Source: a virus. From it: a stretch of 39,156 nucleotides of DNA. The stretch is taken from the IMG/VR virus record IMGVR_UViG_3300017957_000027, positions 1 to 39,156 of that record, one strand, 5' to 3'. Of the stretch, positions 5-22,592 are shown piece by piece; within the stretch, counting starts at the first letter, position 1, and each line of letters opens with the position of its first letter. The translations under genes were made by a program, and so were the position numbers. A model generated the notes under the pieces. It made no database searches. It worked only from the letters and a program-made list of their open reading frames with translations, and was not told the DNA's origin.

Positions 5-21
5 ATGCGGAACTTCGGATC
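5..21 (+). repeat. 17-base repeat at the start of two RNFG genes
   Basis: ATGCGGAACTTCGGATC occurs at 5-21 and again at 1299-1315, each time as the start of a coding region. It encodes MRNFGS. It shows either recent duplication of the gene start or strong constraint on the peptide. Outside this stretch the two genes differ. Confidence 0.8.
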
Positions 22-445
22 CCTCAACGGGCACGCTCGGCGTGACATCCTCACGCAGGCTCACCTCCGGTACTACCGGAGCCCGATCTACTTCCAGCAC
101 GATGTCGGGAACCCGTATGGAACATACGGCGCTCCCGGTTCGGCGTCTCAAGGGTTCAATCTGAGCCTTGGTTCCGGATACACCGGTCCTGGCGTGGCCT
201 ACACCTCGGCGCAGCCCAGTTCAAACAAGTACGATGCACGCGCTTCCGGTCTCACAGCCACTGGGAACGTGCTGTCGGCGCTCGTGACGGGGGTCTTCGG
301 ATTGAAGGCCGCCCAGGCTGGAGCCAAGGGACAGCCCGTCGTCTACCCGCAGCCGACTGGGCCGAACTGGGGTCTCATTCTGGGTGGAGTTGCCGTCACG
401 GGTGTCCTCGTGACGCTCCTTGCCATAGCTCTTCGGAAGAAGTGA
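5..445 (+). CDS. Small membrane protein, RNFG family (putative virion protein)
   Basis: A 146-aa protein starting MRNFGS. The N-terminal 80 residues are rich in Gly, Tyr, Ser and Pro. A weak hydrophobic stretch lies near residues 88-100, and a strong membrane helix at about 122-143 is followed by a basic end (RKK). This C-terminal anchor plus basic tail recurs in most neighbours. The first 17 bases are identical to the start of the gene at 1299. The gene heads a plus-strand run joined by stop/start overlaps. No family is recognised. A structural protein of a virion membrane is inferred from context only. The start lies four bases from the window edge, so its ribosome site is not visible. Confidence 0.8.
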   Translation: MRNFGSLNGHARRDILTQAHLRYYRSPIYFQHDVGNPYGTYGAPGSASQGFNLSLGSGYTGPGVAYTSAQPSSNKYDARASGLTATGNVLSALVTGVFGLKAAQAGAKGQPVVYPQPTGPNWGLILGGVAVTGVLVTLLAIALRKK

Positions 446-744
446 TGATGGGACCGTCCGGACCGACATCTGACTATGGCTGGGGCTTTCTGTTCAGCCC
501 TGTCGTGGCCGCAGGTGTCCAGGCCGGAGGTCAGATCGCGACCGCGACAGTGGCGGGCCGGAGTGGTGTCCGCATGGCGGAGATCGGGGCCGGTGCTCAG
601 GAAGTCACGGGCCGCCAGCAGATTCAGTCTCAGGTAGTCGCCGAGCAGGCAACCCAGCAGCTCGTCGATCGTGTACTCAACATCGCCCTCTTTGGGGCAT
701 TCGCAGTGGTGAGCATCGTCCTCATCAAGAATCTTCCGGAGTGA
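445..744 (+). CDS. Small membrane protein (putative virion protein)
   Basis: About 99 aa. Three starts are possible (GTG 442, ATG 445, ATG 448); ATG 445 is chosen because it forms a TGATG overlap with the preceding stop. The N-terminus is Gly/Ala-rich, the middle is Gln/Ala-rich and probably helical (about residues 45-75), and a membrane helix occupies roughly residues 76-94. There is no enzymatic motif. It sits between two other single-anchor proteins, so it probably belongs to the same membrane or virion set. Function unknown. Confidence 0.75.
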   Translation: MMGPSGPTSDYGWGFLFSPVVAAGVQAGGQIATATVAGRSGVRMAEIGAGAQEVTGRQQIQSQVVAEQATQQLVDRVLNIALFGAFAVVSIVLIKNLPE

Positions 745-747
745 CTC

Positions 748-1296
748 ATGGCCTACGGTGACGGTGGCTTCTTCTTCACGCAGCCCGTGGGTAACGGGTA
801 CAGCGGTGTCTCCTACAGCGCACCTCTCGGTCTCGGCGCAGACGCACGTCTGGCCCGGATGGAGGCTGAGCTTCGTCAGGTCCTCGTTCAGATCGCGAAG
901 GTCCAGCGTCTTCCCAACAACGCCGCCAAGGCTGGGCTGCTTCAGTCGCTTCAGCAGAAGGCTGCGTCGCTGCGTTCGCGCATCGCGAAGATCAAGAGTC
1001 GGCAGCGTCCGCGCTTCAACCTGCGCGTTCCCCCGGTCTCGCTCCCCTACATCGAGTCCCCGATCGATCAGGGACCGGCACTCGACCTGAGCGATGTCCA
1101 GCCCGAGGTGGGTCCCATGCCCGCCGGGTGGAACGTGGTCGAAGACGAGATGACCGTGATGGATGAGGGCCTCGAAGATGAAGGTTTCCTCGCCAGCGTC
1201 CAGAACTACATCATGGAGAACCCCCTGATGTCGGCCGCCATCGGTGCGGGTGTGGGCTACGGCCTGTTCCGGCTCTACAAGCGGTACCGGGGCTGA
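748..1296 (+). CDS. C-terminally anchored coiled-coil protein with MTVMDE motif
   Basis: A 182-aa protein with three visible parts: a Gly/Tyr-rich N-terminus (1-33); a basic helical, probably coiled-coil stretch (about 35-85); and an acidic linker containing EDEMTVMDEGLEDEGF, followed by a membrane helix at about 158-176 and the basic end YKRYRG. The acidic MTVMDE motif recurs at the equivalent position, just before the membrane helix, in the next gene (1299). That suggests duplication or a shared docking site. GGAG followed by GTGACTC precedes the ATG. Probably an integral virion protein; function unknown. Confidence 0.8.
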   Translation: MAYGDGGFFFTQPVGNGYSGVSYSAPLGLGADARLARMEAELRQVLVQIAKVQRLPNNAAKAGLLQSLQQKAASLRSRIAKIKSRQRPRFNLRVPPVSLPYIESPIDQGPALDLSDVQPEVGPMPAGWNVVEDEMTVMDEGLEDEGFLASVQNYIMENPLMSAAIGAGVGYGLFRLYKRYRG

Positions 1297-1298
1297 TC

Positions 1299-1661
1299 AT
1301 GCGGAACTTCGGATCTCCATACGGTGTTGCCGCGACTCGTGAAGCGCAGGCCGCGACCAAGAAGGGCAAGCCCAGCACGGGCCTTCGTGGTCGCATCGCT
1401 CGGCAGCGCCAGCGCGAGCGTGAGCAGGCCATCGCTCGGATCAAGAGCGGCGGTCGTTCTCCCGGAGGCCGAGGCACGCTCAACCTCTTCGCTCCGACCG
1501 CACAGTCCGATGGCGTGGTCGATGACTCGATGACCGTCATGGACGAGTCGTTCGAGGAGCCGACGTTCTTCGAGATGTACCGGACTCCGATCCTCGTGGT
1601 CGGGGCGCTCGGACTCGCATTCGGTGGGTACCACTTTGCCAAGAAGAGGGGATGGTTCTGA
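1299..1661 (+). CDS. Small membrane protein, RNFG family with MTVMDE motif
   Basis: A 120-aa protein beginning MRNFGS, like the gene at 5. A strongly basic region (about residues 20-58, Arg/Lys/Gln) is followed by an acidic segment with SMTVMDESFEEPTFFE and a membrane helix at about 96-112 with a KKR tail. It therefore combines the N-terminal motif of the gene at 5 with the pre-membrane motif of the gene at 748. The basic stretch could bind nucleic acid on the inner face of a membrane (inference). It starts two bases after the upstream stop. Confidence 0.8.
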   Translation: MRNFGSPYGVAATREAQAATKKGKPSTGLRGRIARQRQREREQAIARIKSGGRSPGGRGTLNLFAPTAQSDGVVDDSMTVMDESFEEPTFFEMYRTPILVVGALGLAFGGYHFAKKRGWF

Positions 1662-2050
1662 TGCCTCAGTATGGCTATTCCGCTCCCCTCTTCCCGGCGC
1701 TCTCCGCTTGGCTGGACAGCCCCATGGGGTTCGACGTTGCGGGCGGCGCTGACGAAGGCGTGATCGGCGGATCCTGTGTGGACTCGAAGGGAGTCCTGGG
1801 ACCGGCCGGAGCCAAGGTCTCTTGTTCCGCGCTGCGTGCAGCCCTGGAAGGCAAGAACCCATCCACGTACCGCGAGTACGAGACGATTCCGGACGGTGGG
1901 GCACTTGAGCAGATCGCCGAACTCATCGATGGCGAGGCTCCGGCTGCGGCTACCCCTTCGCTCAAGCCGGAGATCCCGAAGTGGCTCTACGGTGTTGCTG
2001 TCGCAGCCGTGGGCGCAGTTGCCTTTACCCTGTGGACGAGGAAGAAGTGA
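1661..2050 (+). CDS. C-terminally anchored membrane protein
   Basis: A 129-aa protein starting MPQYGYSAPLFP. ATG 1661 is preferred over ATG 1652 because it overlaps the upstream stop as TGATG and has AAGAGGGG a few bases before it. Two cysteines (in GGSCVD and VSCSAL) could form a disulfide in the soluble part. The C-terminus is a membrane helix (about residues 108-125) followed by TRKK. No known family. Topology and operon position match the neighbouring putative virion membrane proteins. Confidence 0.78.
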   Translation: MPQYGYSAPLFPALSAWLDSPMGFDVAGGADEGVIGGSCVDSKGVLGPAGAKVSCSALRAALEGKNPSTYREYETIPDGGALEQIAELIDGEAPAAATPSLKPEIPKWLYGVAVAAVGAVAFTLWTRKK

Positions 2051-2556
2051 TGTACAACGCTCTCGCACTTGAGCCCAACTACGGCTCCGCATACGGTGCT
2101 CCCCCCAAGGAGGGGTACCCCTGCATCCAGATGGGCGCGCTCGACGGCCCGTCCGGTGGCGCAGTGTCGGCAGTCCAGAACGCACTGACCTCCCAGTTCG
2201 GTCCGCTGCTTCAGATTTCGAGCAACCACTTCTCCCAGAAGATGACGCTCGGAACCTTCGACGCTGAGACTGACCGTCTGATCCGCAAGTTTCAGGACAT
2301 CCAGGGACTGACTCCCGATGGGATCGTGGGTCCCGTGACCGGCCAGAAGCTCGGTCTGACGTTCCAGAAGTGCTCGAAGGTCATGGCCTCGGGCGCGGGT
2401 GGACCGATCGATCCCGACCCCCAGCCCATGTCGCTCTACGACAAGTTGATGATCCACCGGTACACGAACCCGGTCGCCTTCTACAGTGTCGCGGCACTGC
2501 TGGCCGGTGGCATCAGCGTCGGTGTGTACAAGGGTTACAAGTGGGTCTGGGGCTGA
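2050..2556 (+). CDS. Peptidoglycan-binding protein with C-terminal membrane anchor
   Basis: A 168-aa protein; ATG 2050 overlaps the upstream stop. Residues 36-104 match the PG_binding_1 fold: a helical VSAVQNAL start, then TFDAETDRLIRKFQDIQGL, then PDGIVGPVT, the usual signature around the last helix. A Pro/Gly linker leads to a membrane helix at about 143-160 and a Trp-rich end. Such domains bind cell-wall peptidoglycan. The anchor suggests the protein sits in the virion or envelope membrane and docks the lytic machinery to the wall. The membrane-anchored lysozyme at 8039 is a likely partner. No catalytic domain is present. Confidence 0.85.
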   Translation: MYNALALEPNYGSAYGAPPKEGYPCIQMGALDGPSGGAVSAVQNALTSQFGPLLQISSNHFSQKMTLGTFDAETDRLIRKFQDIQGLTPDGIVGPVTGQKLGLTFQKCSKVMASGAGGPIDPDPQPMSLYDKLMIHRYTNPVAFYSVAALLAGGISVGVYKGYKWVWG

Positions 2557-2557
2557 T

Positions 2558-3151
2558 GTGAGTCGAGCCGCAGACGAGTTCCGGCGGTGGACCTGGGGTC
2601 TGCCGCACCACGATGTGGAAGACTGGTCTGATCCAGTGCTGGACAAGCACCTGGGGAAGGACCATGAGTACGTCGCGGCTGGACGGCTCTGCGAACTGCA
2701 CTTCACCGAGCCCGGCAAGAAGAAGCAGACCATCCTTCGGCTCAACACGAAGCAGGCGAACAACAGCCTGCTCATGTTCGATCCGGAGCACCGTCATCAG
2801 CGGCTCTACTTCAAGCTCGACCCGAGTTTCCGGGCCACGCTGAAGAAGAAGTACCTGACGAACCCCAAGTACCAGTTCATGCAGGCAGCCAAGGCTGCTT
2901 CACTTGTCGGGGGCCGTCATGGTCACCGGTCGAACCCCGGAACCGACTACCCGAAGGTCGAGGTGATGCCCATCGGGGTCTGGGATGCCGTCGTCTACGC
3001 CATCGAGAAGAACGGAGACGACTTCTCCAAGTACATCCACCAGATGGGGGAGGAGTCAGGCGTCAAGCCCGCACTCGGCCTCGACAAGCGTGGGGGGATG
3101 TACGTCCTCGGGGGGAACTACACTTGCCCGACGGCTGGCATCACGGACTGA
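2558..3151 (+). CDS. Conserved-looking hypothetical protein
   Basis: A 197-aa protein starting with GTG at 2558, two bases past the upstream stop; an ATG at 2556 is out of frame. It is a soluble mixed alpha/beta protein with many charged and aromatic residues and no membrane helix, unlike its neighbours. It contains RSNPG, one of the Asn-Pro-Gly motifs that recur in this virion block. Its last 96 bases are overlapped by the antisense regulator gene at 3056-3334. Last gene of the first plus-strand run. No family recognised. Confidence 0.75.
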   Translation: MSRAADEFRRWTWGLPHHDVEDWSDPVLDKHLGKDHEYVAAGRLCELHFTEPGKKKQTILRLNTKQANNSLLMFDPEHRHQRLYFKLDPSFRATLKKKYLTNPKYQFMQAAKAASLVGGRHGHRSNPGTDYPKVEVMPIGVWDAVVYAIEKNGDDFSKYIHQMGEESGVKPALGLDKRGGMYVLGGNYTCPTAGITD

Positions 3152-3453: not shown

Positions 3454-5505
3454 ATGGACATCCCCCTCAGCGGTGCCCTGTTCATCACGAACCCCCGACG
3501 CAAGCGTCGTCGCGTGGTGACCCGTGACAACGGTGCCAAGGACCGCATGATTGCGCGGCAGACTGGCCGCACGCTCAAGAGCGTGAAGGCCATGAAGGCC
3601 AAGAACTACGCTGCCTACCAGAAGCTGTTCAAGGATGCTGGGGGAGAGGCGGCTCTCAAGAAGTACAAGGCCAAGGGTCAGCGCACTCGGGCTGCCGTCA
3701 AGGATGGCTCATACACTCACTCCACTTGGGGCAAGGGCAGCACGTCCAAGTCCAAGTCCAAGTCCACATCGAGGAAGAAGTCCGCCATGAAGAACAACCC
3801 CCGCCGCAAGAAGTCCGTGTGGCAGCGCTACCTCAAGGCCGCCAGCGGCAAGGGGTACTCGATGGCTGAGCTTCGCGCCGGCTACAAGACGCTGGTCCGC
3901 AAGCACGGTAACAACGCCGCCAAGATCGTTGCTGCTGCCAAGGCATTCAAGGCCAAGGCTGGTGCCGCTCCCAAGAAGCGGAAGAGCACCAAGCGCAAGA
4001 GCGCCTCGAAGGCTCCGGCCCGTCTCGGATTCAGCCTTTCCCGCGTGCAGCGCGTCGTCCGCAAGAAGGGCAAGAACGGTCGCTACAACTACTTCGCAGT
4101 TCTGGGTCGCTCCGGGACCGTGATGAAGCGGATCTCGAAGGCCACCTACAACATGCTCCGGGCCAAGGGCATCGGCGCGAAGGGCCGCACGCTCAAGAAG
4201 CGCAAGACGACCCGCAAGACGACCCGCAAGGCCGCTCCGAAGCGTCGCACGACGACCCGTCGTAGCTCGGCCGCTCGCGGTCGCAGCCGCGCCAAGGTCA
4301 CGGCCAAGCGCGCCAAGCGCGCTCGTCCGAAGGGCGGTCTCCGCAAGATCCGCACGAAGCGCGGGATGCGGTTCATGCTCGACGGGAAGTTCATCTCGAA
4401 GGCGAAGTACAACTCGATGCTGCCCGCTGGGCTGCGCGTCGCGAACCCCCGTCGCCGCAAGAACCCCGGTCTCGGCGCTCTCGCCCTTCGCAAGAACGGA
4501 CGCGCTCGCAAGAACCCGGGTGTCCTCGGGGGCGCTCTGAACCTGTTCGACCGCAGCGCCGACATGCTCGCTCGGGTTCCGCTTGCCGGGCGCTTCGCTC
4601 GACTGGTCCCCACCGTTGGTGTCTTCGCTACCACAGGTCTCATCCACTACTACGCGATGCGGTACCTGGGTCCGAGGCTCCCCGAACTGGGCGCGAAGAT
4701 CGGCGGCCTCATTGGTCAGGAAGAACTTGGCTATGGCTTTGGGGTCCGGACTCAGATGTTCGGGTACAGCCTCGGTGGTGCGACCATCGGAGCCCTCCTG
4801 CTCGCAGGACACCGCTTCCTGCCGAAGGTATTCCCGAGCCAGAGGGCTTCGGAGGTCTTCGCCCTCGCAGCCCTTGGTGGAGGTATCACCCTCGATGTCG
4901 TTGACGCGCTGAAGCGCCGGGACGGGTCCGAGGCTTCTATGGACGCCAACTTCGAGGCTGGTGAGGACATGGATCCGATGCTCGGCCAGCAGCAGACTCT
5001 GAGCGGTCTCGCTTACACGAGTGGTGCTCTCAACGGTCTGGCGTACACAAGTGGCGAACTCAACGGTGTCGCGATGGACAGCGGCGCGGATCTCGTCCAG
5101 TCTTACGCTGGCGCTCACCTCGGTGACGCTGCTCACTGCGGTCCTGACTTCGACGCCGCCGAGGGGCAGGCCCTGATGATGGGTCCCGCTGCCTACAAGG
5201 CTCGCTTCGGCCTCCCGGCTGCTCGCGGATTCTTCAACCGGATGGGCATGTCCCCGATGGCTGGCCGTCCCGGTCACCGCTGGGCCTGGCTCGTCAAGAT
5301 GATCGGCTTCAACCGCGCCGCTAAGCTCGCTTCCATGTCGCCCCGTAAGCGCATGGCTGTCATCGCGAAGCTCCGCGCCCAGGCCAAGCAGACCATCGAT
5401 CAGGCCAACTACGGCGCACTCGCCTACAAGGGCGGTGCACTCAACGGTCTGGCCTACACTGACGGTGCCCTGAACGGCGTCGTCTACACTGGCGGCGTCC
5501 TCTGA
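3454..5505 (+). CDS. Large basic membrane protein with NP(G) motifs and AYTxGxLNG repeats
   Basis: A 683-aa protein with an unusual layout. Residues 1-355 are extremely Lys/Arg/Ser/Thr/Ala-rich, histone-like, with NPRRK-type motifs (13, 115, 331) and RKNPG (335, 353). Within this part, ISKATYNML (227) and ISKAKYNSML (314) suggest an internal duplication. Hydrophobic segments lie near 383-403, 435-453 and 466-486. Residues 517-540 and 654-680 carry repeats of the form GLAYTSGALNG. GGAGTCTGACTC precedes ATG 3454. The basic half could condense the genome against the inner membrane face, as core proteins do in other viruses (inference). It lies just before the main capsid candidate. Confidence 0.85.
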   Translation: MDIPLSGALFITNPRRKRRRVVTRDNGAKDRMIARQTGRTLKSVKAMKAKNYAAYQKLFKDAGGEAALKKYKAKGQRTRAAVKDGSYTHSTWGKGSTSKSKSKSTSRKKSAMKNNPRRKKSVWQRYLKAASGKGYSMAELRAGYKTLVRKHGNNAAKIVAAAKAFKAKAGAAPKKRKSTKRKSASKAPARLGFSLSRVQRVVRKKGKNGRYNYFAVLGRSGTVMKRISKATYNMLRAKGIGAKGRTLKKRKTTRKTTRKAAPKRRTTTRRSSAARGRSRAKVTAKRAKRARPKGGLRKIRTKRGMRFMLDGKFISKAKYNSMLPAGLRVANPRRRKNPGLGALALRKNGRARKNPGVLGGALNLFDRSADMLARVPLAGRFARLVPTVGVFATTGLIHYYAMRYLGPRLPELGAKIGGLIGQEELGYGFGVRTQMFGYSLGGATIGALLLAGHRFLPKVFPSQRASEVFALAALGGGITLDVVDALKRRDGSEASMDANFEAGEDMDPMLGQQQTLSGLAYTSGALNGLAYTSGELNGVAMDSGADLVQSYAGAHLGDAAHCGPDFDAAEGQALMMGPAAYKARFGLPAARGFFNRMGMSPMAGRPGHRWAWLVKMIGFNRAAKLASMSPRKRMAVIAKLRAQAKQTIDQANYGALAYKGGALNGLAYTDGALNGVVYTGGVL

Positions 5506-5577: not shown

Positions 5578-6261
5578 ATGTCCTACGGTATGCCCGTCTC
5601 CGTCAGCCCCGGCGCTGGCCCCGTCCCCCCGGTTTCCTTCCAGCAGCCGACCAACCTCTTCCGCTTTGGCGAGCAGACCATTTGGTCCACCCAGCTCTAC
5701 CAGGCTGGCGCTCTCGCCAACACCACCAACCGGATCTTCACGACCCCGCAGGGTCAGAGCGGTCAGGGCTTCACCAACGCCCTCTCCATCGCTGAGACCA
5801 ACCTGAAGGAAGGCGGTCGCGTCCCCGCAGGCATCGCCTACGACGTGTTCGGTATCGCTACCGAGGTCGCTCTGGCTTCCGCCGCTGACGACACCGGGAC
5901 CCTCGACGGTGCCATCGACACCGCTGCTGAGATCGCCTCGCTGCTCAACGTCATCCATAACGTCGTGCTCCAGTGGGACTTCACGCAGACCCAGATCGAC
6001 ATCTGCCCCGTGCTCCTCGCTGGTGCTGGCGGCGGTGCGTTCGGTGCTGTGGGTACCGGAAACGCTGCTGACGTCGGTCACATGAACAACGGCAACGGCA
6101 ACATCTGGATGTACCAGAAGCACCCGGTCGCCCTCCCCGGTCAGACCACCTTCGCCATCCAGCTCCGCGCTGGCTCCCGGGCCGCCGCTGTGGCGAACAA
6201 CTCGGTCGCCGTCCGCGTCGTCCTGCTCGGCTACTACAAGAACGTCATCGAGATCGGCTGA
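5578..6261 (+). CDS. Major capsid protein candidate (beta-rich, jelly-roll-like)
   Basis: A 227-aa soluble protein, low in charge and rich in Gly, Ala, Thr, Asn and Val. It has alternating beta-strand patterns and a typical ending (VAVRVVLLGYYKNVIEIG) as seen in capsid beta sandwiches. There is no membrane helix. Its position suggests very high expression: its own leader hairpin upstream (5526-5546), GGAG before ATG 5578, and a strong UUCG-loop terminator directly behind. The length suits a single jelly-roll protein of the kind used in pairs by P23-77-like viruses. The fold is inferred from composition and context, not shown. Confidence 0.6.
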   Translation: MSYGMPVSVSPGAGPVPPVSFQQPTNLFRFGEQTIWSTQLYQAGALANTTNRIFTTPQGQSGQGFTNALSIAETNLKEGGRVPAGIAYDVFGIATEVALASAADDTGTLDGAIDTAAEIASLLNVIHNVVLQWDFTQTQIDICPVLLAGAGGGAFGAVGTGNAADVGHMNNGNGNIWMYQKHPVALPGQTTFAIQLRAGSRAAAVANNSVAVRVVLLGYYKNVIEIG

Positions 6262-6427: not shown

Positions 6428-7057
6428 ATGTCCAACAACTACGGGTACGCCAACCCGAACCACATGCAGCCCGCCGGGCAGCAGAACAGCGCCGTCGTGT
6501 CGATGCCCAGCATCGGTCAGATGGGCGGAGTGCAGGCCAACCAGCCCGCATGGTTCCGGTTTCCGTTCTTCCCCACGGCTCCGTTCTACTCCACCAACCC
6601 GAACGTCTCGACGCAGGTCCGGTACTACTCGACCGGGATCACTGCGGCTGACACCGACGTGACGCTCGGGCAGGAGACCATCCGGACCATCACGTTCGAC
6701 ATCCCCGCTCGCGTCATCGCGATCGAGGGCTCGTTCGCGTACACCGCGAACCCGAACACCGACAACTTCCTGGCGAACGGTGGGAACAAGCTCGACACCT
6801 TCCTGTTCCGTGTGGAGTACACGACGGGCGATCGGCTCCACATCAACCCGCGTCTCGCTTCGACGGTCATCGGCTCTGCCGAGAACCCGGCTGAGATCGG
6901 TGGTGTGGGCTACACCGTGGATCAGGGCGCGTCCCTCATCTGCGGACTCACCCCACTGAACAACATCACGGACGCCGACACGACCGCGTGGCGGATCGAC
7001 ATCACCTTCCACTGCCTTGAGATGCGGGGCAGCGCCAACTTCGTGGGCGGTCGGTGA
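6428..7057 (+). CDS. Beta-rich capsid protein candidate (second)
   Basis: A 209-aa protein. ATG 6428 is chosen over ATG 6401 because GGAGG lies 7 bases before it. The N-terminus is Asn/Gln/Pro-rich and flexible (1-45). From about residue 60 to the end there are alternating strands such as TIRTITFDIPARVIAIEG and WRIDITFHCLEM, with polar loops rich in Asn, Asp and Gly, as expected for a jelly-roll. No membrane helix. It starts a GTGA/ATGA-linked run 6428-8590 that ends in the lysozyme gene. It could be the second major capsid protein or a vertex protein; the assignment is inferred. Confidence 0.6.
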   Translation: MSNNYGYANPNHMQPAGQQNSAVVSMPSIGQMGGVQANQPAWFRFPFFPTAPFYSTNPNVSTQVRYYSTGITAADTDVTLGQETIRTITFDIPARVIAIEGSFAYTANPNTDNFLANGGNKLDTFLFRVEYTTGDRLHINPRLASTVIGSAENPAEIGGVGYTVDQGASLICGLTPLNNITDADTTAWRIDITFHCLEMRGSANFVGGR

Positions 7058-7650
7058 GCGACAGGGAACTGCCATACCCCCTTCCGGGAAAGTGGGACCC
7101 GTCAGGCCCGTTCCGGAATCCTGGCGGGACCAACCCGCTTCCGCGACCAGCGAACCTGCCGGTCACGGTGTGGTTCGGTGCGCGTGTTCCCCTCACCTGG
7201 GAGACCATCAACGCAGACGGCGTGCTGTTCCGCGCGACGTGGGCATCTCCCGTCTTCGATCTGTACCCCTGGCTGCGTGGCATGTCTCCGGACAGCGCCA
7301 ACCAGTTGGCTGCGGGCGCGAACCCCATCTGGAACGGACCTTCGAGCCTCTTCCGGTTCCAGTTGAACTCGCCCGCCACGAACGGTCTGGGTGGACTTGA
7401 CCTCCGGGGTTTCCGTGCCACCTACCGTGAGTTTGGTCACATCTCGCAGGTCACGCAGGTCGAGAGCATTGACGCAGAGCAGGACATCACTGCTCAGGTC
7501 ACTGCGGCGCAGGACGCATCGGTGGTCCTGATCCAGCCCAAGAACATCCGGTACTACCGGGTCTTCACGACGTTCGAGGTGCTGGACAACTTCTCGTATG
7601 GGGGCGGCAACGCAGGTCCCCAGATCGCGATTCAGGGAGCGATGTACTGA
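7054..7650 (+). CDS. Beta-rich virion protein candidate (third)
   Basis: A 198-aa protein starting with GTG 7054 in a GTGA overlap with the preceding gene. The N-terminal 40 residues are Pro/Gly-rich. The rest alternates beta strands and loops, with many aromatic residues and a Gly/Asn-rich segment before VFTTFEVLDNF. No membrane helix or enzymatic motif. Its translational coupling to the genes at 6428 and 7650 points to products needed in related amounts, such as capsid, penton or spike components. Function inferred from context only. Confidence 0.55.
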   Translation: MSDRELPYPLPGKWDPSGPFRNPGGTNPLPRPANLPVTVWFGARVPLTWETINADGVLFRATWASPVFDLYPWLRGMSPDSANQLAAGANPIWNGPSSLFRFQLNSPATNGLGGLDLRGFRATYREFGHISQVTQVESIDAEQDITAQVTAAQDASVVLIQPKNIRYYRVFTTFEVLDNFSYGGGNAGPQIAIQGAMY

Positions 7651-15455: not shown

Positions 15456-16007
15456 ATGATGCACGGTGTAGTCCGCAAGGGCGTCATCCCCCTCCATTCT
15501 GCCACTGGCGACATGGGCTATGGAGCCTACGGCGTCCGACTCGCTGGCGTGGGCTGGCCGAGTTGGAACTGGCGGCAATACAAGTACTCCCAGTGCCCCG
15601 GCTACCGCAAGCAGGTGGACCTCTTCGTCAAGAAGAAAGAGGAGTACAAGGCGAAGTACGGCACCATCGGCTGGTTCAAGGGAGGCAGCCAGGACGCCGC
15701 CAACCACCTCCGCGCCATCGAGAAGCGTGGCAAGGCCGAGTGGAAGAAGTGCAAGGCTGTACGGAAGGCCGGCAAGAAGGGCTGGACTGACATCTCGGCT
15801 GGCGGTGCGGGCATGGCTGCGGGCGGAAGCGCGCTGGTCGATCCCCTCACCGGGATGCCGATGGACACGTCCATGGTCAGCGCCGAGGTCGATGAGGGCG
15901 GGATCGGAAGTGGAGTCTGGCTCGCACTCGGCGGACTGCTTCTCGTCACGGGCACCGTCGTCGCCGTCAGGAAGTACAGGAAGGGCCGGAAGGGCCGCCG
16001 TCGGTGA
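15456..16007 (+). CDS. C-terminally anchored basic membrane protein
   Basis: A 183-aa protein. AAGGAG lies seven bases before ATG 15456; ATG 15459 is also possible. The N-terminus is Gly/Tyr/Trp-rich (YGAYGVRLAGVGW). A Lys-rich helical middle follows (about 48-112) with two cysteines that frame it (QCPGYR and KKCKAV), then a Gly/Met-rich linker, a membrane helix (about 152-171) and a strongly basic tail. The layout resembles the gene at 11725. Probably a virion membrane protein; function unknown. Confidence 0.78.
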   Translation: MMHGVVRKGVIPLHSATGDMGYGAYGVRLAGVGWPSWNWRQYKYSQCPGYRKQVDLFVKKKEEYKAKYGTIGWFKGGSQDAANHLRAIEKRGKAEWKKCKAVRKAGKKGWTDISAGGAGMAAGGSALVDPLTGMPMDTSMVSAEVDEGGIGSGVWLALGGLLLVTGTVVAVRKYRKGRKGRRR

Positions 16008-16354
16008 CCCCTGAGATGCTCAACTTCTTGCTCCAGGCAGGACTCCCGTCAGGGATGGGCGTCCTCATCATCCTGTACCTCCTGAAGCACCACCTGCCTC
16101 GGGAGCAGGCTCTCTACGCGGAGAGCCTCAAGGGACAGCAGGAGACCTTCAAGGAAGCACTGAGGTCCGAGCAGGCCGTTCACGCCGAACTGATGACCCG
16201 GCTCACCGAGCAACATCGCGAGAGCCTTCAGGTCATGCGAGACACCTTTATCGACGAGCACACCCGTACTCGTGTCGCACTGGATAGACTCTCGGACCAG
16301 ACGAACAAGCTGAGCGAAGCGGTATTCACGCTGCGCGGGCAGGAGAGTAGCTGA
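16004..16354 (+). CDS. Holin-like protein (BhlA/UviB-type layout)
   Basis: A 116-aa protein, GTG start in a GTGA overlap. One membrane helix lies near the N-terminus (about 12-28, GMGVLIILYLLK). A long charged coiled-coil (30-110) follows, rich in Glu, Gln and Arg. A short N-terminal anchor plus cytoplasmic coiled-coil is the layout of BhlA/UviB holin-like proteins, which help phages or bacteriocins leave the cell. I see no sequence signature that proves it. A structural membrane role is the alternative. Confidence 0.7.
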   Translation: MTPEMLNFLLQAGLPSGMGVLIILYLLKHHLPREQALYAESLKGQQETFKEALRSEQAVHAELMTRLTEQHRESLQVMRDTFIDEHTRTRVALDRLSDQTNKLSEAVFTLRGQESS

Positions 16355-16686
16355 TGTCGCAGTTCGACCCGTTCGAGGGATTCCAGACGACCGTCGCAGC
16401 GGCCGGAACCGCCGTGGCGCTCAGCCCCCAGCCCTACGGCAACACGAACACGATCCTCGTGTACAACAGCACGGCGAACGACGTGTTCCTGAAGTGGCAG
16501 ACCAGCAACGCTGCGATCACGGCAGCGAACGGCGTCCGGGTTCCGGCCACGTCGAGCGTCCAGTTGGTGATCGGCCCTGCGAGCCAGCGCCCCTCCGCAG
16601 GCGGCGCAGGCTACGAACTGTACGCTGACGCTTCGGCTGGCGGCACGACGTTCGAGGTCGCCTACGTCAACGGATCGTCGTACTGA
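16354..16686 (+). CDS. Small beta-rich protein, possible capsid accessory
   Basis: A 110-aa protein in ATGA overlap with the holin-like gene. It has no membrane helix and little charge, with regular beta strands (TNTILVYNST, DVFLKWQT, SVQLVIGP, TFEVAYVNG) and Asn/Thr/Ala loops. This resembles small beta-sandwich decoration or spike proteins. It ends a plus-strand run; the convergent minus gene begins at the very next base (its stop at 16687). Confidence 0.6.
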   Translation: MSQFDPFEGFQTTVAAAGTAVALSPQPYGNTNTILVYNSTANDVFLKWQTSNAAITAANGVRVPATSSVQLVIGPASQRPSAGGAGYELYADASAGGTTFEVAYVNGSSY

Positions 16687-17232: not shown

Positions 17233-17754
17233 TCAGCGGTTCGGGTAGATCAGATCCGCAGCATAGGCACCACCGACTGCCGCAGCAACCAGACCCAGAC
17301 CCCGCAGGAGCGATCCGTCGTAGTCCTTGTAGACCGACGCCGCGACGCCCATGCCCAGCAGAGCGCCAGCGGTCGGAACGCTGTCCTGCAACGCCGCGAC
17401 GGGCATCGAGGGAGCGAACTTCCGACCCGCAGCGAAGCCGAGAGCGGTCAGGCCCGCGTAGGTCAGGAGCTTCGGGAGCAGGGGCTGCTCCTCTTCCACG
17501 AGGACCAGATCGGGAACCTCATCCGTCTGCCCGTAGGTCATTCCGGGACGACCGCTCACGGCCACACCCGGACCCTGGTGCCACCCGGACTGCATGTGGA
17601 TGGGACCCGGAAGGTCATCCGGCGGGGTGACCGGACCAGGGATGTTGCCCGGGTCGATCGCGCCGTTGTGGATGAAGCCCGGACCCGGGTTCCCCTGGGG
17701 AGTGGGGACCGGCTCTGCCGGGAACTTGTTGAGGAAGGCAGGTGCGTCAGCCAT
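17233..17754 (-). CDS. Pro/Gly-rich membrane protein with three helices
   Basis: A 173-aa protein. The first 80 residues are Pro/Gly-rich and probably extended (TPQGNPGPGF, then PGNIPGPVTPPDDLPGP). They are followed by an acidic patch and three small-residue-rich hydrophobic segments (about 91-108, 121-139, 148-167). The extended half could reach from a membrane to an outer shell, as membrane-capsid linkers do (inference). It is separated by two bases from the recombinase gene upstream. Confidence 0.75.
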   Translation of the reverse strand: MADAPAFLNKFPAEPVPTPQGNPGPGFIHNGAIDPGNIPGPVTPPDDLPGPIHMQSGWHQGPGVAVSGRPGMTYGQTDEVPDLVLVEEEQPLLPKLLTYAGLTALGFAAGRKFAPSMPVAALQDSVPTAGALLGMGVAASVYKDYDGSLLRGLGLVAAAVGGAYAADLIYPNR

Positions 17755-17756
17755 GA

Positions 17757-18548
17757 CTACTCCATGTGTTCGATCGCATCGCTGAGCATCTTCGCATCAG
17801 GGTGCAGGTAGCGAGAGGTGGTGTCGATGCTCTCGTGCCCCATGAGGGCCTGGAGCGTGCGGAGGTCCATCCCGCTCCGCAGTGCGTTCGTGGCGAACGT
17901 GTGACGGAGCGTGTGGGGGGTCATCTTGCCGAGTTCGGGATGCTTCTTGCGGAGCTGACGGCAGACCTTCCGGACCGCAGCGGGTCCGATGGGTCCACCG
18001 GACCGTCCGAGGAAGAGCCAGGACTCGACCGAGTGAGTCTTGTTGTAGGTCTTGAGGGCCGTGAGCGCTGCCCGATTGAGCGGTACGAACCGCTGCTTGT
18101 CCCGCTTGCCCCGGAACACCAGACCCCAGTGACCCTGCTTCTGCACGATGTTCTTGCGATGCAGGTTGCACGCCTCCGAGATGCGGAGGCCCGTGCGAGG
18201 GAGCAGGAGAAGGATGGTCCGGATGGGGTCGTGGACTTCGCTCGCGGCTGCGTAGAAGATGGCGAGTTGGGCCGGAGACAGGGAGTCACGCTCCGCTGCG
18301 GGTCGGCCCTTCGCCTTCGGGAGAAGCGCCTCGACCTCTGCGGGTGAGTAGCCCTCGGCCAGGAGCATGTGCTTCACCGCAGCGCGGAGAGGCAGCACGG
18401 TCCCGAGCGGAGTCCGGGCGTTGATCTTCCGGTTCAGCCAAGTTGCCGGGTGCTCACCCTGCATACGGTCGGCGATCCGCTGGTACTGCCGCTGGGTATC
18501 GGGCAGCAAGCGGTGTCGATCCATGTGCTGGATGAGCGCGGCACTCAT
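17757..18548 (-). CDS. Tyrosine recombinase (phage integrase/Xer family)
   Basis: A 263-aa protein; ATG 18548 overlaps the stop of the upstream gene as ATGA. An N-terminal SAM-like DNA-binding domain (about 1-80) precedes the catalytic domain, whose residues are complete: Arg122 (in RTGLRISEACNL), Lys149/151, His212 and Arg215 (HTLRHTF), His238 (LMGHESIDTTSRYLH) and the nucleophile Tyr247. The short, Xer-like form with a small N-terminal domain is typical. It catalyses site-specific strand exchange. It lies inside a membrane-protein operon with overlaps on one side, not beside a visible attachment site. Genome circularisation or dimer resolution is as likely as host integration. Confidence 0.93.
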   Translation of the reverse strand: MSAALIQHMDRHRLLPDTQRQYQRIADRMQGEHPATWLNRKINARTPLGTVLPLRAAVKHMLLAEGYSPAEVEALLPKAKGRPAAERDSLSPAQLAIFYAAASEVHDPIRTILLLLPRTGLRISEACNLHRKNIVQKQGHWGLVFRGKRDKQRFVPLNRAALTALKTYNKTHSVESWLFLGRSGGPIGPAAVRKVCRQLRKKHPELGKMTPHTLRHTFATNALRSGMDLRTLQALMGHESIDTTSRYLHPDAKMLSDAIEHME

Positions 18549-18748
18549 GCGTCGTCCTTCTTGGGGCTCAGCGCGATGGTCGGAACGAGGAAGCCGAGGG
18601 TTGCTCCCACCCACCAGAGGCTGGGCTTGAGAGAGGCACCAACGAAGGCCCCGACAAGGCCACCCATGATGCCAAGTCCACCGACGCCTGCGGAGCGCGC
18701 GGCTCCTGCGACCTGGGTGTCGAGATCGGTCTGTCCAAAGTTACGCAT
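18545..18748 (-). CDS. Tiny membrane protein, RNFG family
   Basis: A 67-aa protein starting MRNFGQTDLD; this start is set by the family motif and by GAGGA upstream. Two hydrophobic segments (about 20-36 and 41-58) and an acidic/basic end (SPKKDDA) make it a small two-helix membrane protein. It is the third protein here that begins with MRNFG, but on the opposite strand to the others. Its end overlaps the recombinase start (ATGA), so the two are translationally coupled. Confidence 0.75.
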   Translation of the reverse strand: MRNFGQTDLDTQVAGAARSAGVGGLGIMGGLVGAFVGASLKPSLWWVGATLGFLVPTIALSPKKDDA

Positions 18749-18756
18749 GGCGGTCC

Positions 18757-19053
18757 TCACATCATGGAGTTGTTGTAGCGGTACCAGAGCATCCCGATGA
18801 GGACGGGGCTGCCCAACGTTCCGAGAGTCCACACGAACCGCATGGTGTCGTCCGGGGAGTTCTTGCGGAGGCCGTTCGCGAAGTAGGTGAGAGCGGCGAG
18901 ACCGAGGGTCTGCATCAAGGGAGGATCGACGGGATTGGCCCACTCGTAGCCCATGACCTGTGGCATCTCGGAGCCGTTGGTCTGGCCGAAGTTCCGCTCC
19001 GGCGGGCAGCAGGGCTGGGGCATCGGGTTGTTCATGCACTCAAGACAAGCCAT
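18757..19053 (-). CDS. Small membrane protein with RNFG motif and N-terminal cysteines
   Basis: A 98-aa protein. The first 17 residues contain four cysteines (MACLECMNN, then QPCCPPE), which could bind a metal or form disulfides. ERNFGQTNGS follows, the same motif that begins the downstream gene. Two hydrophobic segments lie at about 47-60 and 74-90. GAGGAA precedes ATG 19053. Membership in the virion membrane set is inferred from the motif and topology. Confidence 0.75.
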   Translation of the reverse strand: MACLECMNNPMPQPCCPPERNFGQTNGSEMPQVMGYEWANPVDPPLMQTLGLAALTYFANGLRKNSPDDTMRFVWTLGTLGSPVLIGMLWYRYNNSMM

Positions 19054-19054
19054 G

Positions 19055-19354
19055 TCAGTTGTTCCTCAGGTGGGAGTACAGAGAGCGCGCACCACCTGTG
19101 ATGGCTCCCCACTTCAGCCCCTCGAACGCGGTCAGGCCGGGCACGAGGTAGCCAATGGCTGCGAAGATGACAGCCGACGTGGCTGCTCCCCGCACGGTGT
19201 TCTCGATGAGGCCCCCCGAAGGGTCGGCCTGGACCGCCGCGTCCCACACCCCGTAGGTGTTCTTGATCAGCGCCAGCGACTCACCCGCAGACGAGTCGTC
19301 CGGAGTGCGGTACCCCAGGCCCTGAATGAGGGGGATGACGGTCTTGTAGGACAT
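19055..19354 (-). CDS. Small membrane-associated protein
   Basis: A 99-aa protein, ATGA overlap with the upstream gene. The soluble N-terminal half is polar; a hydrophobic segment lies at about 58-75 (AATSAVIFAAIGYLVPGL). A small Gly/Ala-rich end with basic residues follows. No family recognised. Its coupling to the multi-helix protein at 19354 suggests they act together. Confidence 0.72.
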   Translation of the reverse strand: MSYKTVIPLIQGLGYRTPDDSSAGESLALIKNTYGVWDAAVQADPSGGLIENTVRGAATSAVIFAAIGYLVPGLTAFEGLKWGAITGGARSLYSHLRNN

Positions 19355-19959
19355 CAGCCGATCTCCATCGCTTCCACATCGATGATGCCAGCATCGTCGA
19401 GGCGCTGGGTCAGCTTGCTGGCGGCACCGACCTGAACGTACATGACCTCACGCACCAGCCGGCGCAGCCCGAAGCCAAGTCCCAGACCGACGATTCCGCC
19501 CTTCAGACCGTCCATGATGCTGCCACCACGCACGGTGGAGAGCAGAGCGCCTGCGGCGAAGCCCACTGCGGGCGTGACGAACCGGAAGAAGGGATTGGTC
19601 TCGATCACCTCGTCTGCCGTGGCGCGACGCTCCACCACTTCCTTCCGCTCCTTGAAGTAGTAGTACGCCAGCCCGGCCGCACCGGCTGCTGCCGCACCGG
19701 CCAGGAGCGGAATCCCGAGAGCGAGGAGCGGGAGGGGGTTCTTGCGGGGATTCGACTTGGCACCGCCGAAGGTAACGCCCCGATCTCCGAAGTACTTGGC
19801 CCAGGTGGCGAAGGCACCGATACCGAACAGCACGCCATCACCGGGCAGCGGCGACAGGGCTGCGACACCCCAGACAGCCGAGGCAAGGAGAGGAACTCCG
19901 ATCCCCAGCGGCTTCTTGGGGTTCATCAGTGCGAATCCGGCCTTCTTCTTCTTTGCCAT
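19354..19959 (-). CDS. Multi-helix membrane protein with NP motifs
   Basis: A 201-aa protein beginning MAKKKKAGFALMNPKKPLG, a basic start followed by an NP motif like those in the basic 683-aa protein. Hydrophobic segments lie near 18-36, 43-56, 77-101, 127-142 and 152-166. SNPRKNPLP precedes the third segment. The C-terminus is soluble and helical (LTQRLDDAGIIDVEAMEIG). It may be a main protein of the internal membrane. Function unknown; the start is set by the clear basic N-terminus. Confidence 0.78.
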   Translation of the reverse strand: MAKKKKAGFALMNPKKPLGIGVPLLASAVWGVAALSPLPGDGVLFGIGAFATWAKYFGDRGVTFGGAKSNPRKNPLPLLALGIPLLAGAAAAGAAGLAYYYFKERKEVVERRATADEVIETNPFFRFVTPAVGFAAGALLSTVRGGSIMDGLKGGIVGLGLGFGLRRLVREVMYVQVGAASKLTQRLDDAGIIDVEAMEIG

Positions 19960-19960: not shown

Positions 19961-20392
19961 TCAGAGCCCCAGGTGAGCGGGTCGGGGGCGAGCACCGCCC
20001 GAAGTGGTCTGGATGAGATCGTGGTCGTAGTAGATGGGTGCGCCGTACAGGCGCTCCCCGACGGCATCAGCGCGGCGCTCGATGCCCTTCGGCAGCCCCG
20101 GCATCCAGTCGTTCAGCCCTTCGAGCCCAAGGTGGAACTCCACGGCGTGTCCGAACTCGTGACGCAGGAGTCCTTCCTGTCGCCCCTTGTTCATCCTCAG
20201 CACCTTGGGCGCGACGAAGATGTCGATCTGCCGCCCAGCGTTGGTGTCGAGGTACATGCACATCGCGCAGTTCCGCTTGTGGGGGTAGTCCCCCGAGTGG
20301 CCCAGGAAGAGCCGAACATCGAAGTGAGGGAGATGCGAGGAAGTCTCCGCCTGAAGGCGGTCGAAGATCCGAACCAGACGTGACTCACTCAT
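19961..20392 (-). CDS. Putative zinc metallopeptidase (HEFGH)
   Basis: A 143-aa protein with RHEFGHAVEF, the HExxH zinc-binding helix (His78, Glu79, His82), followed at residue 105 by ERRADAVGE, which can supply the third Glu ligand as in ImmA/IrrE-like and related peptidases. Residues 42-45 (CAMC) may add a structural site. No signal peptide or membrane helix. Because it lies in the virion-protein operon, a maturation protease for structural proteins is a reasonable guess, as is an anti-regulator function. The Shine-Dalgarno is weak. Confidence 0.75.
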   Translation of the reverse strand: MSESRLVRIFDRLQAETSSHLPHFDVRLFLGHSGDYPHKRNCAMCMYLDTNAGRQIDIFVAPKVLRMNKGRQEGLLRHEFGHAVEFHLGLEGLNDWMPGLPKGIERRADAVGERLYGAPIYYDHDLIQTTSGGARPRPAHLGL

Positions 20393-20451
20393 TCCCGCAG
20401 CCTACTGGCTTCTCGGGACCTGCTCAACGCGCCACGCAAGATTGTGGGCCA

Positions 20452-21585
20452 TCAAGCGCTCTGCATCTCACCTTCGGACACAAGCATGAGGATGGTCTGA
20501 GTGATCAGAGCCTCGAAGCTCTCGGGATCGATGCCCAGTCCGATGAACTCGTCACGGTACTGCTGGAACTCCGGCTCCCGTCGAAGCATCTTGGCGATGG
20601 CCCTTGCGTTCGGGACTCGACCCTGGGTGTAAGCCGTTTCCACCGTGGAGATGAAGAAGTTCGCTGCCGTCCCCACGCTGTCGGTCGAGACCTGCTCCGG
20701 GTCCATCTCGTCCACGATGGTGTTGACCCAGGAGCGCGTCACAGTGGTGTCGCTCACATCGGCCTGTTCGAGGACTTCCCTCATGTTGAACAGCCCCTCA
20801 GGCTCACCCAGCATGGCGGCGAGCTGTGCGCGGAGTGCCGCGATCTTCGCCTCTGCCTCATCCCAGCGTGCCCGTGCAGACTCCCGCTCTCCCGGCGGTG
20901 TGGTCAGACGCTCGAACAGCGCACTGAACGAGGACTGACGCTGTTCCATCTTCTGGATCTGGGCCTTGAGTTCCTCGACAGACACCGGACGGACTCGCGC
21001 CGACATGCGGGATGCCTCACGCTGCCTCTCCGACTCGGGTCGGAAGCGCAGAGACCCCGCGCCGGAACTGAACGCCTCGGGTGTCCGGAACGCAGGACTC
21101 GTGCGCGGCCAGCCGGTCTGGCCGACCTGACCCTCTCCGTACAGTGACTCCCAGTGTGCCTGGACAGAAACAAGGGCGGTCTGATTCACTGCACGGTTCG
21201 GTAGACGGGTGCGACTCAACGTGACTGAGGCGCGAGCGTTCGGACCGCCGTACCGGCGACTGCCAGCCCCACCGTACAGGTGCTCGACCGCTTCGTACTT
21301 CGTCGCCTGCGGCAGGATGGGCATGAACGCGACCTTCCGGTCTGTCTTGTCGCTGAGTTTCTGCGCTGCCTCCTGCGCCTTCAGGAGCGCCTGCTGCTTG
21401 AGGACATCCGGGGGGAGTCCCATCTCCTGCCGCAGTCGGCCCTGGGGACCTGCCGAACGGATCGCCACCGCGTAGCCCACATCAGGGTCGTCCACGAACA
21501 CGAAGTACCCGAGGAAGTAGCGGGACTGCGTGCTCTTGGTCCCAGGGACCGGGTTCAGGCGCTGACGCGGCAGACGGATTCTCAT
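20452..21585 (-). CDS. Hypothetical protein with coiled-coil
   Basis: A 377-aa soluble protein. The basic N-terminus contains RQRLNPVPG, one of the NP motifs typical of this block. Residues 1-120 look like a compact alpha/beta domain, and 125-190 are polar and low-complexity. Residues about 198-260 form a Glu/Arg/Ala-rich coiled-coil, and the C-terminal 100 residues are helical and acidic. No catalytic motif. ATG 21585 overlaps the upstream stop (ATGA), tying it to the membrane-anchored helical protein at 21582. Structural or assembly role inferred. Confidence 0.75.
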   Translation of the reverse strand: MRIRLPRQRLNPVPGTKSTQSRYFLGYFVFVDDPDVGYAVAIRSAGPQGRLRQEMGLPPDVLKQQALLKAQEAAQKLSDKTDRKVAFMPILPQATKYEAVEHLYGGAGSRRYGGPNARASVTLSRTRLPNRAVNQTALVSVQAHWESLYGEGQVGQTGWPRTSPAFRTPEAFSSGAGSLRFRPESERQREASRMSARVRPVSVEELKAQIQKMEQRQSSFSALFERLTTPPGERESARARWDEAEAKIAALRAQLAAMLGEPEGLFNMREVLEQADVSDTTVTRSWVNTIVDEMDPEQVSTDSVGTAANFFISTVETAYTQGRVPNARAIAKMLRREPEFQQYRDEFIGLGIDPESFEALITQTILMLVSEGEMQSA

Positions 21586-22592
21586 CGCTTCTTGTCACTC
21601 CTGATGAGGAGCCCGAGGATCACACCACCGATCGCCAGCGGGATGAGCGTGGACTTGGTGGGAACGAACGACTTCTGGGAGAGACCGCTGTATCCAGCAG
21701 GGCAGACATCGGGAGCCTGGACCGCAGAGATGGAAGCGTTCGCAGTGGTCGCCTGATTCTTCTGTGCCTGGATGGACCGCTGCATGGCGGGCAGTCCGCT
21801 CAGGAAGGAGAACAGGTCTCCCCGAGACGCGAGCAGAGCAGTGCGCGCGTTCCGAATGTCGTCCCGGTACTGCCGCAGGTACCGGAAGAGCGTGTCCCGC
21901 TTCTGCGTGCGGCTCTTGCGGTCCCAGGCGGACTCCCGCATCTCGATGACCCTCCACCCCCACGCGGTGATTCCGAGAGGTAGAGCGGCGTTCCAGAGGG
22001 TCTGGCGCAGGTCGTACACGGTGTTGAGGACGCCACGCACGCGCGTCACCAAGTCCACGGTCTGGTTGAAGTCCGAGACGAGCTGGGCCTGACCGGCACG
22101 CAGGGACGTGATGGTCTGGTCGGCCTCGGAGAGGACCGTGATCAAGTTCGGCAGCACGACCTGAACCGACTGGTACGACGCGCGGAAGTTGTTGTACTTC
22201 GCGCAGGTGTTCACCGGAGACGGGAGCACCATCGTGTTGACGGAGTTCGTGCTCGTCGTCAGCAGGCTCTTCCACCGCCGCATCGAAGACAGCGCGCTCG
22301 CGGCCGAGGACAGCAGCCTCAGGGTGGACTGAGCCTCGCTCCGAACCTCGTCACGCGCGGACCGAGGCACGACCAGACGCATCAGGACGCTCCAGTCCGA
22401 CGACGCGAGGGGTCGAACCTTGCGCTGGATGTCCCGTGACGATGCGAGTGCAGTGTTGATGGACCGGATTCCACGGTTCAGGTCCCGCGTGACACCCGGA
22501 ATGACCCTCGTGTACGAGGACTTGAACCTACGAAGCTGCGAAGAAGCGTCAGAAGCAGCATCAAATGCCATCTCTTGTAGCGCGTTTGGCAT
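21582..22592 (-). CDS. Long helical protein with C-terminal membrane anchor
   Basis: A 336-aa protein. ATG 22592 is chosen because CGGAGATTCC lies directly before it; an upstream in-frame ATG at 22655 lacks such a site. Nearly the whole protein is Ser/Thr/Arg/Leu-rich helix, suggesting helical bundles or coiled-coils. The end has a Cys-containing segment and a membrane helix (about 313-330) with RSDKKR. It is the first gene of the minus-strand block, read from the promoter candidate at 22691-22719. The layout suits a spike stalk or membrane-spanning conduit protein, but nothing proves this. Confidence 0.78.
   Translation of the reverse strand: MPNALQEMAFDAASDASSQLRRFKSSYTRVIPGVTRDLNRGIRSINTALASSRDIQRKVRPLASSDWSVLMRLVVPRSARDEVRSEAQSTLRLLSSAASALSSMRRWKSLLTTSTNSVNTMVLPSPVNTCAKYNNFRASYQSVQVVLPNLITVLSEADQTITSLRAGQAQLVSDFNQTVDLVTRVRGVLNTVYDLRQTLWNAALPLGITAWGWRVIEMRESAWDRKSRTQKRDTLFRYLRQYRDDIRNARTALLASRGDLFSFLSGLPAMQRSIQAQKNQATTANASISAVQAPDVCPAGYSGLSQKSFVPTKSTLIPLAIGGVILGLLIRSDKKR

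Follow-up and report, generated by a model that had tools for sequence, protein, structure and literature searches.

Large tailless phages that contain a membrane are so far represented by one orphan isolate, SSIP-1, which has a circular genome of 44 kbp, a T=49 capsid, and two major capsid proteins (PMC6260650, PMC6356626). It was described as hardly similar to anything in GenBank (PMC6356626), and its record, NC_017983, holds 43,788 bp. A second point of reference is Sulfolobus polyhedral virus 1 (SPV1), whose VP4 is a single-jelly-roll hexamer protein (PMC8459092). According to a 2016 paper, every single-beta-barrel virus then known came from extreme environments (PMC4958249). Here, we describe the 39,156 bases that make up the entire IMG/VR virus record IMGVR_UViG_3300017957_000027 (the window). 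The window probably covers the greater part of the genome of a tailless, membrane-containing double-stranded DNA phage of at least 40 kb, with an SSIP-1-like plan and a tailed-phage-like replisome. A sequence-only reading of this DNA had taken PRD1, PM2, and P23-77, with genomes of roughly 10-31 kb, as its reference; the 44 kbp of SSIP-1 shows that range to be too narrow for membrane-containing tailless phages.

Genes were predicted with a purpose-written codon-composition caller, which gave 54 window proteins with approximate starts. IMG/VR was queried with the polymerase, the SNF2 helicase of the structural half, and the capsid candidates, and this gave four informative contigs (L002, L004, L005, and G002). 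In L002 (18 kb), L004 (13 kb), and L005 (8 kb), the genes of the replication block follow the same order as in the window, and the polymerases are 81% and 64% identical to that of the window; L004 and L005 seem to be overlapping pieces of one virus. G002 (IMGVR_UViG_3300029258_001816; 41,099 bases) is an independent relative with homologues of g05, g07, g08, the four capsid candidates g09 to g12, g14 (at the N terminus), g18, g22, the integrase, g29, and the replication set.

We favor a tailless membrane-containing phage because proteins with a C-terminal helix occur at about 8 times the control rate and are concentrated in the structural half, because the same architecture is seen in the isolated SSIP-1, and because anchored cell wall enzymes recur in relatives (G002 and L004). 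It is further favored because two genomes keep the capsid block yet show no terminase, portal, or tail-tube genes, and because g10 finds its best Pfam and PDB match in a single-jelly-roll capsid protein from a membrane-containing virus.

Proteins with a C-terminal membrane helix

A helix was called where a 19-residue segment within the last 50 residues had a mean Kyte-Doolittle value of at least 1.1 and its central 15 residues were uncharged. By this fixed rule, 18 of the 54 predicted window proteins end in a single helix and 12 have a net basic tail, in line with the dozen or more small proteins of this kind that the sequence-only reading had described. Fifteen of the 30 proteins in 5-22592 are of this type versus 3 of the 24 in the replication half. 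Those in the structural half, beyond the wall enzymes listed below, are given here with some neighboring proteins.

5..2050, plus strand: g01-g05, five small proteins, of which g01, g02, g04, and g05 each end in one membrane helix
11725..12908, plus strand: g15 and g16, C-terminal membrane helix by the rule
15456..16686, plus strand: g19 (C-terminal helix, tail of +9), g20 (N-terminal helix and coiled coil), and g21 (110 residues, strand-rich)
17233..17754, minus strand: g23, C-terminal membrane helix by the rule
18545..19959, minus strand: g25-g28, small membrane proteins
21582..22571, minus strand: g31, 329 residues, C-terminal membrane helix by the rule and basic tail

The terminal helix of g03 is weaker (under the rule threshold), and its end is basic. 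The g05 segment GADEGVIGG[ST]C...GAKVSC is conserved in G002.

When one identical mechanical open reading frame caller was applied throughout, single C-terminal helices were found in 8 of 47 window proteins (17%), 8 of 56 from SSIP-1 (14%), and 19 of 858 from 38 control virus contigs (2.2%), so that they are about 8 times commoner in the window than in controls. Fisher's test against the controls gave P values of 3e-5 for the window and 5e-6 for 1-22592; these values are indicative, and the controls, picked solely for an SNF2 helicase, have a GC content of 37-50% compared to 64% in the window and are incompletely matched in composition. In the SSIP-1 annotation, about 10 small proteins (gp34-36, 39, 41, 42, 50, and 52-54) end in one helix.

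Two short motifs also stood out in the structural half. The pattern [RNQDSTM][FY]G (as in MRNFG, MSNNYG, and MPQYG) lies in the first 40 residues of 12 proteins within 5-22592, where shuffles expect 2.9; it shows no excess in the right half of the window, G002, or SSIP-1 and may be a signal for processing or targeting that is specific to the lineage. The structural half is also rich in NP[RGK] tripeptides (15 versus 3.0 expected), as is G002 (14 versus 4.5). These tripeptides often lie beside very basic stretches (g08 and g28), and L002 carries SNPRNFG.

Membrane-anchored cell wall enzymes

Three predicted enzymes or binding proteins of the cell wall type are fused to a C-terminal anchor.

2050..2556, plus strand: g06, peptidoglycan-binding domain (PG_binding_1, E=5e-8) and C-terminal membrane anchor (helix at residue 142)
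8039..8590, plus strand: g13, lysozyme domain (Phage_lysozyme2, E=7e-7) and C-terminal membrane anchor (helix at 158)
37619..38236, minus strand: g54, GDSL esterase (Lipase_GDSL_2, E=6e-8) with C-terminal membrane anchor (helix at 174) and basic tail

The domain matches of g06 and g13 exceed the Pfam curated cut-offs. Both proteins carry the helix, as had been claimed for membrane-anchored peptidoglycan-binding and lysozyme proteins. Similar genes are found in the relatives: a GH24 lysozyme that ends in a helix is encoded in G002 on the strand opposite to the capsid block, and the last gene of L004 encodes an M15 peptidase whose C terminus includes a hydrophobic segment. L005 starts with an amidase-like gene, and L002 carries an endolysin-like gene. 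In SSIP-1, gp54 is lysozyme-like with a C-terminal anchor. Tape-measure PHROGs that matched g13 were set aside, as the match arises solely via the lysozyme domain.

Capsid candidates

Four adjacent genes, beginning at 5578, 6428, 7054, and 7650, encode the proteins that we consider candidates for the shell.

5578..6261, plus strand: g09, major capsid candidate 1, 227 residues, 52% identical in G002
6428..7057, plus strand: g10, major capsid candidate 2, 209 residues, 53% identical in G002, marginal SPV1_VP4 match
7054..8039, plus strand: g11 and g12, strand-rich, 198 and 129 residues, 28% and 24% identical to the G002 genes in the same place

All four favor strand by propensity and are low in Glu and Lys, and their order is repeated in G002, where an HNH/methyltransferase gene and three small paralogues stand between the first and the second. 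To this extent, the description of four adjacent beta-rich capsid-like proteins at 5578-8039 stands. We consider g11 and g12 probable minor capsid or vertex proteins. The three G002 paralogues are mutually related proteins of about 115 residues. The inserted gene (G002 33896-35686) joins an HNH endonuclease with a DNA methylase-like domain and resembles a selfish mobile gene inside the capsid block.

Against Pfam SPV1_VP4, g10 scored E=0.0015 and 18.7 bits, and its best PDB match was 6oj0 (VP4; E=0.021). At the level of sequence, this match to the portoglobovirus protein is marginal, and we treat it as a lead. No homologue of g09 was found in phages or in 72,556 plasmids by tblastn or in GTDB genomes by pattern scan, and none of g07-g10 among phages by tblastn. 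Scans of IMG/VR (with g09, g10, and g07, singly and in pairs) and of GTDB (with the g09 pair and the polymerase alignment) returned G002 alone or nothing.

We compared these proteins with known capsid proteins. In SSIP-1, gp45-gp48 have 210, 211, 256, and 132 residues, and the two of about 210 residues are mutual paralogues (hhalign, 95%). The sole significant sequence relation between the window and SSIP-1 is the integrase; among the structural proteins, g13-gp54 reached 9.5 bits and g10-gp45 reached 7.3 bits, with no profile match. Where g13 and gp54 resemble each other (z=7.4), they do so only toward the C terminus, anchor included; the lysozyme portions by themselves give z=0.5, and the likeness may reflect convergent composition. 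Profile comparison (hhalign) with the capsid proteins of SSIP-1, P23-77, IN93, and SH1 gave probabilities of <2% in a comparison that also missed its positive control, VP16-VP7.

These scores bear on the idea that the virus belongs to a known lineage, either the Halopanivirales (P23-77, IN93, and SH1) or a sister of SSIP-1, and has diverged past sequence recognition. This idea overlaps with our reading and is judged here for true kinship. It would account for the parallels with SSIP-1 (a capsid-sized pair of about 210 residues, larger and 130-residue strand-rich proteins, a size of >40 kb, an anchored lysozyme, and an integrase) and for the weak g10-gp45 and g13-gp54 scores. However, the capsid probabilities stay under 2% in that low-power comparison, and the G002 orthologue of g10 gives gp45 no support. 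Such kinship seems somewhat unlikely to us. What the window shares with SSIP-1 is a plan, and kinship in sequence does not follow from the comparisons made. We make no family assignment, because detectable homology to SSIP-1 structural proteins was tested and was not found. Tentatively, and with slightly less than even confidence, we propose a new lineage of at least family level. Its members would be tailless membrane phages of >40 kb with capsid proteins unrelated in sequence to known families, a complete replisome of the tailed-phage kind, built on a family-A polymerase and recombination proteins, and perhaps a packaging motor that is not of the FtsK/A32 type.

Search for tailed-phage and packaging genes

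PHROGs and Pfam scans covered the window proteins of interest (10 + 10 + 40 against PHROGs and 10 + 10 + 10 + 40 against Pfam, in overlapping sets) and nearly all G002 proteins. They found no terminase, portal, tail tube, baseplate, head-tail connector, or confident tape-measure in the 39 kb of the window or the 41 kb of G002. No large terminase of Caudoviricetes type turned up in this sampled DNA, the gap between contig ends being unsampled; no portal or HK97 capsid profile matched either contig; and from the tail, fibre-type appendage families alone were matched. The absence of portal, terminase, and tail genes from the window, asserted in the sequence-only reading, thus holds in these scans.

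Several names in the output were traced to other genes. We infer that weak “terminase” names in the window come from the helix-turn-helix of g43 (75 residues, 28724-28951), since the scan lists families and not members. A phrog_2 match in G002 was traced to a helix-turn-helix gene, and a “portal” PHROG match in G002 (E=7e-9) was traced to a NUDIX gene at 16609-16989.

The contig search that had been suggested for an FtsK/HerA-type packaging ATPase and a terminase found neither, in open-ended contigs and with an FtsK profile that is weak and nearly misses its positive control, the P23-77 ATPase. Canonical P-loops occur only in the SbcC-like g40 and the Sak4-like g50. This pattern is no test for terminase, as HK97 TerL itself has no canonical match.

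The ends of the window matter to these negatives. No end repeat was found in its 39,156 bases, and the gene at the right edge is cut.

38976-39155, minus strand: g56, the C-terminal 59 residues of an appendage- or attachment-type protein, truncated by the contig end

This fragment is 90% identical to the C terminus of a 417-residue G002 protein (16989-18242) that matches the virion structural protein family phrog_1645 (E=1e-82) and has about 358 more residues upstream. The left-end genes of the window lie on the plus strand, and the missing 1.1 kb or so of g56 has no counterpart there. The window is therefore not a closed circle and lacks at least 1.1 kb. These 59 residues are 90% identical, compared with only about 52% for the capsid proteins, and the two genomes carry the gene in different places; a recent exchange of a host-binding tip is likely.

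Replication and recombination genes

The right half of the window encodes the following replication and recombination proteins.

26329..27957, minus strand: g40, SbcC/Rad50-like ATPase (phrog_77, E=6e-6; AAA_23, E=5e-5)
29669..32434, minus strand: g46, uracil-DNA glycosylase (UDG) fused to a family-A DNA polymerase with 3'-5' exonuclease
33068..35795, minus strand: g49 (conserved), g50 (Sak4-like annealing ATPase), and g52 (PD-(D/E)XK exonuclease)
35795..37606, minus strand: g53, second SNF2-type helicase (SNF2, E=5e-14)

The domains of g46 were matched at E=7e-32 (DNA_pol_A), E=1e-18 (UDG), and E=1e-7 (exonuclease), and its relatives are 81%, 64%, and 47% identical. g40 is present in every relative whose contig covers its place. 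g49 has no family match and by position would be a single-stranded DNA-binding-like protein.

In the phage collection, the best full-length polymerase match (26%) was Virus Rctr197k (KX853510; 197 kb), from an anaerobic methane-oxidising enrichment, which also encodes a g56-family protein. The paper describing the Rctr197k culture reports a 197-kb genome without an annotated tail gene as well as tailless, apparently membrane-containing particles, and it does not link the two.

Observations that count against the tailless reading

A number of observations weigh against a tailless virion. Strand propensity separates the jelly-roll from the HK97 fold poorly (HK97 gp5 scores 0.51 for helix and 0.62 for strand), and AlphaFold models of g09 and g10 from two-sequence alignments had predicted local distance difference test scores of 32 and 30, unusable for fold. 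The g10-VP4 match lies under the curated cut-off of 27 bits and is not shared by the G002 orthologue. Anchored proteins are fewer in G002 (6 of 51). No FtsK/A32-type packaging ATPase was found in 39 or 41 kb with the insensitive FtsK profile. The replication genes of the window match tailed-phage PHROGs, and a family-A polymerase replisome would be unusual in a tailless phage. The g56 family occurs in tailed cyanophages, and the fibre-like proteins of G002 are common to tailed phages. Finally, the window and G002 are both open in the same interval, between g56/g52 and g01; terminase and portal genes could sit in that gap, and the negative covers about 40 kb and not a genome.

Part of this would be expected if the virus were a tailed phage (Caudoviricetes), the genes for its terminase, portal, and major capsid protein fell in the unsampled gap, and its structural half encoded tail, appendage, and unusual membrane proteins. 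The shared contig ends and the tailed-phage families matched by g56, by the fibre-like proteins of G002, and by the replication genes would all fit. Such a phage would nevertheless have to show no tail-tube, baseplate, head-tail connector, or confident tape-measure gene in either contig, and a structural block with fifteen C-terminally anchored proteins is atypical of tailed phages (19/858 in controls). We consider a tailed phage quite improbable. The shared g56 and fibre families also fit an exchange of host-binding modules, which alone implies no tail.

Taken together, the part of the sequence-only reading that proposed a large tailless membrane virus with its own polymerase and recombination set is upheld by the richness in membrane proteins, the absence of detected tailed-phage morphogenesis genes from two genomes of about 40 kb, the replication families, and the parallel with SSIP-1. 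Its jelly-roll capsids have marginal sequence evidence, and the whole-genome absence of terminase and portal that it implied is not established.

Other genes of the structural half

The remaining features lie mostly between the capsid block and the replication half or flank the capsid block.

2555..3151, plus strand: g07, conserved in the structural block, 39% identical to its G002 homologue, C terminus GGNYTCP..GITD
3454..5505, plus strand: g08, 683 residues, very basic (+111), 27% identical to a G002 protein over 553 residues
8627..11725, plus strand: g14, basic, 1032 residues (1543 in G002), 40% identical to G002 in the N-terminal 50 residues only
13813..15429, plus strand: g18, SNF2-type helicase inside the structural half (SNF2, E=2e-27), 46% identical in G002
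17757..18548, minus strand: g24, tyrosine recombinase (integrase; Phage_integrase, E=1.5e-36), 49% identical in G002
19961..20392, minus strand: g29, HExxH (HEFGH) protein, adjoining the integrase in G002 too (HELGH)

No database match was found for g07; its start near 2555 is set by conservation, the caller having placed it at 2636. g08 carries repeated NP[RG] and GLAYT.G.LNG motifs and is probably a virion- or DNA-associated protein. Its repeat SGLAYTSGALNGLAYTSGELNG recurs near the C terminus (D1; 69 nucleotides, 75% identical), and the G002 homologue has its own mid-protein repeat, EGVFGGIALDN. g14, which has no family match in the Pfam and PHROGs scans, is a probable internal virion protein. 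The motif of g29 points to a probable zinc metalloprotease. A second HExxH protein (HETIH) at 23181-23531 matches a protease-named PHROG, phrog_15610.

The integrase, together with an unproven capsid fold and the lack of a detected packaging ATPase, might suggest a nonviral integrative element or a plasmid that exports membrane vesicles or encapsulated DNA. The window instead encodes a virion appendage protein, anchored wall-degrading enzymes, and a virus-typical polymerase and recombination set; no conjugation or partition genes were seen in it, and g09 was unmatched among the 72,556 plasmids. An element of this kind is hardly credible.

Proposed working of the virus

Based on the gene content, a tailless membrane-containing phage might work as follows. 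An icosahedral shell would be built from g09 and g10, and g11, g12, and g21 would serve as its minor or vertex proteins. A lipid vesicle inside the shell would hold about 15 proteins, each fixed by one C-terminal helix; these helices are predicted from sequence, and their place in the virion is presumed. The basic ends of the anchored proteins, along with the strongly basic g08 and g14, may be turned toward the DNA. Host binding would fall to the appendage protein g56, and the membrane-held g06, g13, and g54 would open the cell wall locally at entry, after which the vesicle would deliver DNA without a tail, as described for PRD1. Judging from their families, the virus's own UDG-family-A polymerase would copy the DNA with the g52 exonuclease, the Sak4-like g50, the SbcC-like g40, and two SNF2 helicases. 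The tyrosine integrase g24 would allow lysogeny.

If this is true, two related genomes of about 40 kb with a shared plan turn a one-off into a lineage, and a replisome of the tailed-phage type can go together with a tailless virion. Annotation pipelines that seek terminase and HK97 genes would overlook such viruses. Two homologous sequences per capsid candidate are now available for structure work.

Comparison with known systems

PRD1 and PM2 (Tectiviridae and Corticoviridae) supply the working model, an internal membrane with virion-borne peptidoglycan hydrolases (PMC6356626, PMC10589892). They differ in having genomes of 10-15 kb, one double-jelly-roll capsid protein, and a packaging ATPase, P9, of which none was found here. 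The likeness to the Portogloboviridae is the marginal g10-VP4 match. SPV1 has a lipid layer under a single-jelly-roll shell and no packaging ATPase among its assigned genes (PMC8459092). In contrast to the window, these are 20-kb archaeal viruses without a polymerase and presumably nonlytic (PMC8459092), and the G002 orthologue of g10 lacks the VP4 match. The Matshushitaviridae and Sphaerolipoviridae (P23-77, IN93, and SH1) have an adjacent capsid-sized pair, wall-degrading enzymes in the virion, and membrane proteins, as the window would. However, their genomes are 17-31 kb with a packaging ATPase annotated near the capsid genes, and homology in capsid and ATPase went undetected in a comparison of low power. 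Their wider group, the Halopanivirales (Helvetiavirae), is marked by two single-jelly-roll major capsid proteins of the VP16/VP17 type, an A32/FtsK-type packaging ATPase, and an internal membrane bearing anchored proteins; the window offers two conserved capsid-sized candidates and many genes for anchored proteins.

SSIP-1 is the closest in plan. It differs in gene order around the capsid block and in replication, having a primase and a sigma factor with no polymerase annotated, whereas the window has the UDG-PolA polymerase, two SNF2 helicases, and the Sak4/exonuclease set. Both have two adjacent capsid-sized proteins of about 210 residues followed by proteins of about 250 and 130 residues, with a very large structural protein beside them. 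Both also share a plan of >40 kb (for the window, 39.2 kb plus the gap; G002, at 41.1 kb, is also open), an integrase, a cluster of proteins with C-terminal helices, and an anchored lysozyme.

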